Below are positions 13,428-15,301 of a stretch of DNA of 64,000 nucleotides, piece after piece. Numbering within the stretch: position 1 is the first letter of the stretch; every line of letters begins with the position of its first letter. The notes below the pieces were generated by a model. The model was not told the origin of the DNA. It made no database searches and worked only from the letters and a program-made list of their open reading frames with translations. The DNA is from Thermosipho africanus Ob7. Lineage in GTDB: Bacteria; Thermotogota; Thermotogae; Thermotogales; Fervidobacteriaceae. The translations under genes and the position numbers were made by a program. The stretch spans positions 62,001 through 126,000 of the forward strand of contig NZ_NKRG01000004.1 in NCBI RefSeq assembly GCF_003351105.1, written 5' to 3'.

Positions 13428-14204
13428 ATGAAAAAACTAAATGTAATATTATTAATATTGTTTGGTATTTTTGCTTTTTCTGGGAATTTTTTGGTTTTTG
13501 ATAATACTATAATTATTAATCATTCGCCAATATTTTTAGTCTTGGGTGATGGCTTTGGTGTTGGATATTCGTATGCTACAAATACTACATATTACACAGA
13601 ACAAAAACTAGGTTTTTTGAAAATAAAAAAGCCGGCCAAAGTAGAGAATATGAATTTTTCCCTTTTTGCCGGTACAAGTTTTGGTATCTATTTATCTATA
13701 GGTTATGAAAATCTGAATTTTCCAACATCAAGCCAAGGCTTGGAGTTTTTTGTTTCTGATCAATACAGTTTCTTTACATCGAATTCTAATTCCTTTGTTG
13801 CTGTTGGTCCGATATCTTTAAGTGCTGAAAAGTTATTTTTAAGAAAAGGAAAAGATTTTGGATATTCGCTTGATAGATATTTTGTTAAGTACAAAGATTT
13901 TTCTGGATATATTCTTTTGCTAAATGGAAAGAACTTTTTAGGATATTTGTATTCTTTAGATAATTCTCTACAGCAAGGAATATTAGCGGGGTTGGGAACG
14001 GATTTTGGCGGTTTTTATTTGAATATTGGAGCAAGGAAATATTTTTCAGCGGGTGAGTTTAGGGGGTTTGGATACGGATATATTTACTCATCAACTAATG
14101 ATATATTTAATATAAATTATTTGTTCGGAGTAAAGTTTATAGTTCCTTTGAAAGGGGAATTTTTAGTCTGGGATGGAAAAATTGCTTTCAGATTTAATTG
14201 GTAA
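13428..14204 (+). CDS. Exported protein, probable small outer-membrane beta-barrel
   Basis: This 258-residue protein has a signal peptide (MKKLNVILLILFGIFAFS). The rest is made of alternating short strands rich in Gly, Tyr and Phe, such as GDGFGVGYSYATNT, GLGTDFGGFYLNIGARKYF and YLFGVKFIVP. It ends in FRFNW; a C-terminal aromatic residue is the usual BAM recognition signal of barrel proteins. No family is recognised. The gene follows gatB by five bases and its 3' end overlaps the likely hemW start. It resembles the protein at 62266 in style. Function unknown. Confidence 0.7.
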   Translation: MKKLNVILLILFGIFAFSGNFLVFDNTIIINHSPIFLVLGDGFGVGYSYATNTTYYTEQKLGFLKIKKPAKVENMNFSLFAGTSFGIYLSIGYENLNFPTSSQGLEFFVSDQYSFFTSNSNSFVAVGPISLSAEKLFLRKGKDFGYSLDRYFVKYKDFSGYILLLNGKNFLGYLYSLDNSLQQGILAGLGTDFGGFYLNIGARKYFSAGEFRGFGYGYIYSSTNDIFNINYLFGVKFIVPLKGEFLVWDGKIAFRFNW

Positions 14205-15301
14205 TGTCAACACTCTTTCAGTGTATATACACATACCATTTTGTAAAAAAAAAGTGTTACTACTGTGATTTTGTAAGTTATGAAGAAGGAAGTGTAGAAA
14301 ATTATATTAATGCTCTTTCAAAAGAAATTGAGCTCTATGGTGATTATTTAAAAAGGGGTATTAGAACACTTTATATAGGTGGTGGAACACCAAGTTATAT
14401 TAATGAACATTATATAGAACAGTTAGTAAAAAAGCTAGAAAAGTATTTGATTCTTGAAGAATTTACTATAGAGGTAAATCCTGACTCTTTTGACAGGCAA
14501 AAAGCACAGTTTTACAAAGAAATAGGTGTTAGTAGATTAAGTATAGGGATTCAGTCATTTGATAATGAAGTTTTAAAAAAAGCTGGGCGAAGCCATGATT
14601 CAGCCCAAGCGTTGAAAGCTTATAATGTTGCAAGGGAATATTTTGAAAATGTTAATGTAGATTTTATAATAGGTCTTCCTGGAGAAAGCTGGAGTAGTAT
14701 AGAAGAAATTGTAAAGTTTATTCGAGAAAATCATCCACCACATATTTCTGTATACTTACTAGAAATTCATGAGGGTACAATTCTTTCAAATTTTTACAAG
14801 AAAATTCCAGAAGAATCTTATAACAGATATGAGGTGTTACTTGATTTTTTGAAATCTGAAGGGTATGAAAGATATGAAATTTCGAATTTTGCTTTAGATA
14901 AAAATTATAGTAAACATAATTTGGTTTACTGGGCAAATCTAGATTATATAGGACTAGGATTATCATCCGGAGGACATATAGGAAATCTTAGATATAATAA
15001 CGTTTCGGATTTTGAAACTTATTATTCTATGTTAAAACATGACAAATTTCCCAGAAGTTATGAAAATGAGAACACTTTGGAACGTGAAGTATTAGAAAGT
15101 ATTTTTATGATGCTTAGAACAAAATGGGGAATAGATAGAAAACTGTTACCTATACTCCCAGGATTTGAAAAAGTAATTGAACTATTAAAGAAAAAGTATG
15201 ATTTTTTTGATGGTCAAAAGTTAAACGAAATGGGTATGGATTTTTCCTCAATTTTCTTTACAAATCTACTTGAAATCTGGGAGGACTTTTATGAGATATA
15301 G
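14173..15301 (+). CDS. hemW: HemW/HemN-like radical SAM protein, apparently frameshifted in a run of nine A
   Basis: The product is a HemW-type radical SAM protein, probably a heme chaperone rather than a coproporphyrinogen dehydrogenase. Landmarks are IGGGTPSYI, EVNPDSF, LSIGIQSFD and FIIGLPGESW. The frame carrying the body opens at TTG 14198 but lacks the first motif cysteine. That residue lies in the neighbouring frame (ATG 14173 onward, reading SVYIHIPFCKKK), which stops at 14268. Removing one A from the nine-A run at 14245-14253 restores CKKKCYYCDF, the intact CxxxCxxC cluster motif. So this is a sequencing slip, a real inactivating frameshift or a slippage-read gene. I see no strong ribosome site for 14173. 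The end overlaps ftsW by 11 bases. Confidence 0.75.

Follow-up and report, generated by a model that had tools for sequence, protein, structure and literature searches.

In bacteria, RNA polymerase slips strongly on runs of nine A or T, and the dnaX gene of Thermus makes use of this (PMC5009743); the tssM gene of Citrobacter is rescued by an A11 run (PMC4256274). On A/T runs, slippage mainly inserts bases, and no frame-restoring case was found in Buchnera (PMC5574713). Long runs are also places of sequencing error: the Ion Torrent PGM was reported to be unable to count homopolymers of more than 8 bases (PMC3431227), and its long-run errors were reported to be mostly under-calls (PMC3623719). 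The genome of Thermosipho africanus Ob7 (NKRG00000000; 1,933,435 bp, 23 contigs, GC 30.6%) was obtained from Ion Torrent PGM reads by Newbler assembly (PMC6211235). The source assembly studied here (G000) has 1,933,435 bases in 23 contigs, with a GC content of 30.7% in the sampled contigs; from these matching statistics, and not from the accession, we infer that it derives from this platform, which is prone to run-length errors.

The window, the whole stretch of 64,000 nucleotides that was analysed, contains only one 9-base run of A or T, and this run splits the gene hemW (Table 1). It lies between TTTTGT and GTGTTACTACTGTGAT. The frame of ATG 14173 reads MEKLLSDLIGNVNTLSVYIHIPFCKKKVLLL before its stop, passing through ...IHIPFCKKK, and the corresponding 31-aa ORF in the program-made ORF list (14173-14268) ends with ...SVYIHIPFCKKKVLLL. 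The remainder of HemW, reading ...HFVKKKCYYCDF..., is carried by a 367-aa ORF (14198-15301). As assembled, the CX3CX2C motif does not lie in one open frame, whereas it is unbroken in the relatives with A8. When run lengths from A7 to A12 were tried, CKKKCYYCDF was obtained from A8 alone; A11 also restored the frame, but gave CKKKKC, with one surplus residue between cysteines 1 and 2. The frame break is therefore confirmed as first described: the sequence-only reading had given the early stop, the junction of nine A and the perfect motif with A8, and the sequence and the ORF list agree with it on all of these. The break is beyond chance, because relatives keep one frame at the same place.

The 5′ part of hemW overlaps the end of an upstream gene (13428-14204), and ATG 14173 is conserved as the start across the genus (MEK.LSDLIG). 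Another ATG, at 14204, belongs to the downstream frame and shares bases with the stop of the upstream gene; of the members of the genus compared, only the nearest relative (G001) also has it. It was rejected as the true start: its product, MSTLFQCIYTYHFVKKKCYYC, would lack both the IHIPFC strand and the first cysteine, and two further relatives, G002 and G003, do not have this ATG.

Table 1. Features of the split hemW gene (positions in the window) and seven further genes of the Ob7 assembly carrying A9 (contig:position)
Feature	Location	Strand	Basis or observation
hemW 5′ part, conserved start to first radical-SAM cysteine	14173..14244	+	ORF list; start and sequence conserved in G001, G002 and G003
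A9 run, frame-change site (A8 or interrupted 8-base stretch in relatives)	14245..14253	+	Sequence, alignment
hemW remainder, intact in other frame: cysteines 2 and 3, radical-SAM domain, HNLVYW, stop included	14254..15301	+	TIGR00539, PF04055, dN/dS
Premature stop TGA, in frame of ATG 14173	14266..14268	+	Sequence, ORF list
M42 peptidase	C1:236382		A9, +1
Lipase-like, 791 aa	C1:207228		A9, +1
Glutamate-synthase-like oxidoreductase	C3:142290		A9, +1
PEGA-domain-like	C5:14941		A9, +1
Permease-like, 1110 aa	C5:26776		A9, +1
CitMHS/ArsB-type permease	C5:54594		A9, +1
Sigma-factor gene, near start	C2:102599		A9, +1

The 367-aa frame scored 225 bits against TIGR00539 (HemW), above the cut-off of 205.4, and Radical_SAM (PF04055) was matched in the downstream part of the gene. 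By these profile matches the split gene is hemW, encoding a predicted heme chaperone; both this assignment and the genus had been named correctly from the letters alone. The TIGR00539 match ends at residue 317 of 367. HemN_C (PF06969) is the usual domain of HemN and HemW; no match to it was found at an E value of 0.001 anywhere in the Ob7 assembly, and the C-terminal part of the protein may be divergent in Thermosipho.

Comparison with relatives found no other case of the broken arrangement, hemW being in frame at this place in all of them. The nearest relative has A8 and a single open hemW frame, with 98% identity at the protein level and, over 4 kb, 95% in DNA; G003, likely T. melanesiensis BI429, likewise has A8 and one open frame, and in other members of the family the lysines are partly spelled with G and hemW is in frame. 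A hemW match was present in 61 of the 61 genomes searched in the class (weak matches counted), nearly all of the matches being strong and full-length, and the gene is single-copy in the Ob7 assembly, where the next radical-SAM match is 23% identical. With the lysines excluded, the hemW sequences of Ob7 and its nearest relative show 49 synonymous against 6 nonsynonymous differences (dN/dS 0.025); this ratio gives no sign of decay, though a very recent loss would leave no trace. A contig scan for further genomes turned up a single additional Thermosipho MAG, along with distant relatives, but no second T. africanus. The comparison with related hemW genes that had been proposed as a check thus gave eight A in the nearest species, which favours a sequencing slip without closing the matter.

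Runs of A were then surveyed across the assembly, which has 41 A or T runs of at least nine bases. The Ob7 sample comprised the DNA around all of these runs, the whole of contig C4 and the first parts of the other large contigs (0.66 Mb with overlaps), and that of the nearest relative 1.74 Mb; the Ob7 stretches were partly picked around A9 runs, so that A9 totals are not comparable between the two genomes while frame-breaking fractions are. Among sense-strand coding runs that could be aligned between the two, the frame was broken at 9 of 15 A9 runs, in every case by +1, and at 2 of 70 A8 runs (p = 6e-7). One of the nine (C6:72732) is a case in which the split frame is that of the relative, and leaving it out gives 8/14; another (C2:102599) is close to the start of a gene, which may use a different start codon.

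A strict ORF-switch survey missed hemW, whose upstream part is short. Dicodon statistics on both sides of each run were therefore used for a survey independent of any comparator, although this too misses hemW, which does not have 120 coding bases upstream of the run. Frame switches were found at 7 of 14 A9 runs in Ob7, all +1, and at 2 of 59 A8 runs, against 1 of 9 and 3 of 184, respectively, in the nearest relative; in both genomes, a baseline rate of a few per cent comes from ordinary gene junctions, and for A9 runs by themselves the two genomes differ only weakly (p = 0.09). The same type of lesion as in hemW is thus present at other long runs of the Ob7 assembly and rare in that of its relative.

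Besides hemW, seven genes carry A9 where the frame of the relative needs one base fewer (Table 1); the oxidoreductase among them is glutamate-synthase small-subunit-like. At C2:6976, A8 in Ob7 versus A7 in the relative splits a 1124-aa helicase-like gene (RecQ-like by eye). A further A9 with a +1 switch, between ORFs of 325 and 784 aa, was seen at C3:15927, its counterpart lying outside the sample of the relative. In the window itself, Ob7 has two T more than the relative within 20 bases (2595-2612), at the beginning of a 275-aa ORF of the relative or close to it; the cause is a pair of small indels or else another start.

A single broken run could stem from mutation as well as from error. Roughly one in two coding A9 runs in this Ion Torrent assembly carries the +1 lesion, from the very length at which the platform is reported to lose count, and this points to error. 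We consider it probable (roughly 80%) that the A9 of hemW is a homopolymer overcall made in sequencing or assembly. The chromosome would then carry A8 and one intact hemW, and the ninth A would be a run-length error of the Ion Torrent PGM reads and Newbler assembly; the other +1 breaks at A9 would, with that of hemW, be miscalls rather than mutations. Several points count against a miscall: the Ob7 cases are over-calls, opposite to the mostly under-calls reported for the PGM (PMC3623719); the difference from the relative at A9 is weak when taken by itself; and genuine A9 runs whose breaks are tolerated by slippage would yield the same +1 asymmetry. A literature search on Ion Torrent, Newbler and frameshifts found nothing specific. 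A sequencing slip had been offered by the sequence-only reading as an alternative, and of its explanations this is the best supported.

If A9 is real, hemW may have been newly inactivated, or be phase-variable, in this isolate through replication slippage from A8 to A9. Runs of A8 are prone to such slippage and the lesion is single and clean, but inactivation is unlikely for a single-copy gene that is present in every genome searched and has no decay, and it leaves unexplained why several unrelated genes in the assembly share this +1 lesion.

Distinctly unlikely, too, is the explanation first preferred, in which RNA polymerase slips on a real A9 and yields some A8 (or A11) transcripts, so that a fraction of the mRNAs encode full-length HemW. 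The strong conservation of the downstream part would suit it, and the fact that A9 breaks throughout the assembly are exclusively +1 would fit tolerance. However, a correct HemW product needs the loss of one base, while two added A alter the cluster motif, CX3C becoming CX4C; moreover, the arrangement occurs in no relative, and the nearest relative, of the same genus, has few frame switches at A9. The platform of the assembly and the +1 breaks at its coding A9 runs, rare in the relative, leave slippage unsupported. Very unlikely in its wider form is that Ob7 truly has A9 in hemW and several other genes and that its polymerase slips enough to keep all of them working, a free-living thermophile tolerating A9 breaks genome-wide; were the runs real, such an organism would lend itself well to the study of slippage rescue.

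Scarcely credible is a +1 shift of ribosomes on a real A9, for although AAA AAA AAA G allows the Lys tRNA to re-pair one base on, the well-known A_AAA_AAG shift goes the wrong way (-1; PMC5009743), the site is unconserved in relatives, and the 77 bases 3′ of the run form no fold more stable than those of shuffled sequences (z 0.38), so that a shift with a stimulating structure was rejected.

If the overcall explanation is right, several genes of the representative genome of the species are recorded in databases as split purely because of run-length errors, and T. africanus should not be counted as having lost HemW. Most likely, the finding is mainly a caution and not a real feature of the genome.

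Compared with known systems, the gene resembles HemW, the radical-SAM heme chaperone, in its CX3CX2C-DF when read with A8 and in HNLVYW, akin to the HNxxYW motif given for this protein in PMC11834973; it differs in that the first cysteine is out of frame with the remainder in the assembled sequence and HemN_C is undetected. With the poly(A) slippage rescue of Thermus dnaX, Citrobacter tssM and Buchnera pseudogenes it shares a frame change at A9 in an A+T-rich genome, but here one base must be lost where slippage mainly adds, and relatives do not conserve the site. Homopolymer errors of the Ion Torrent PGM and 454 are matched, apart from an over-call where under-calls are reported to dominate in long PGM runs (PMC3623719), by a long A run altered by one base, by intact genes in relatives, and by many genes of one assembly being hit at runs of nine.
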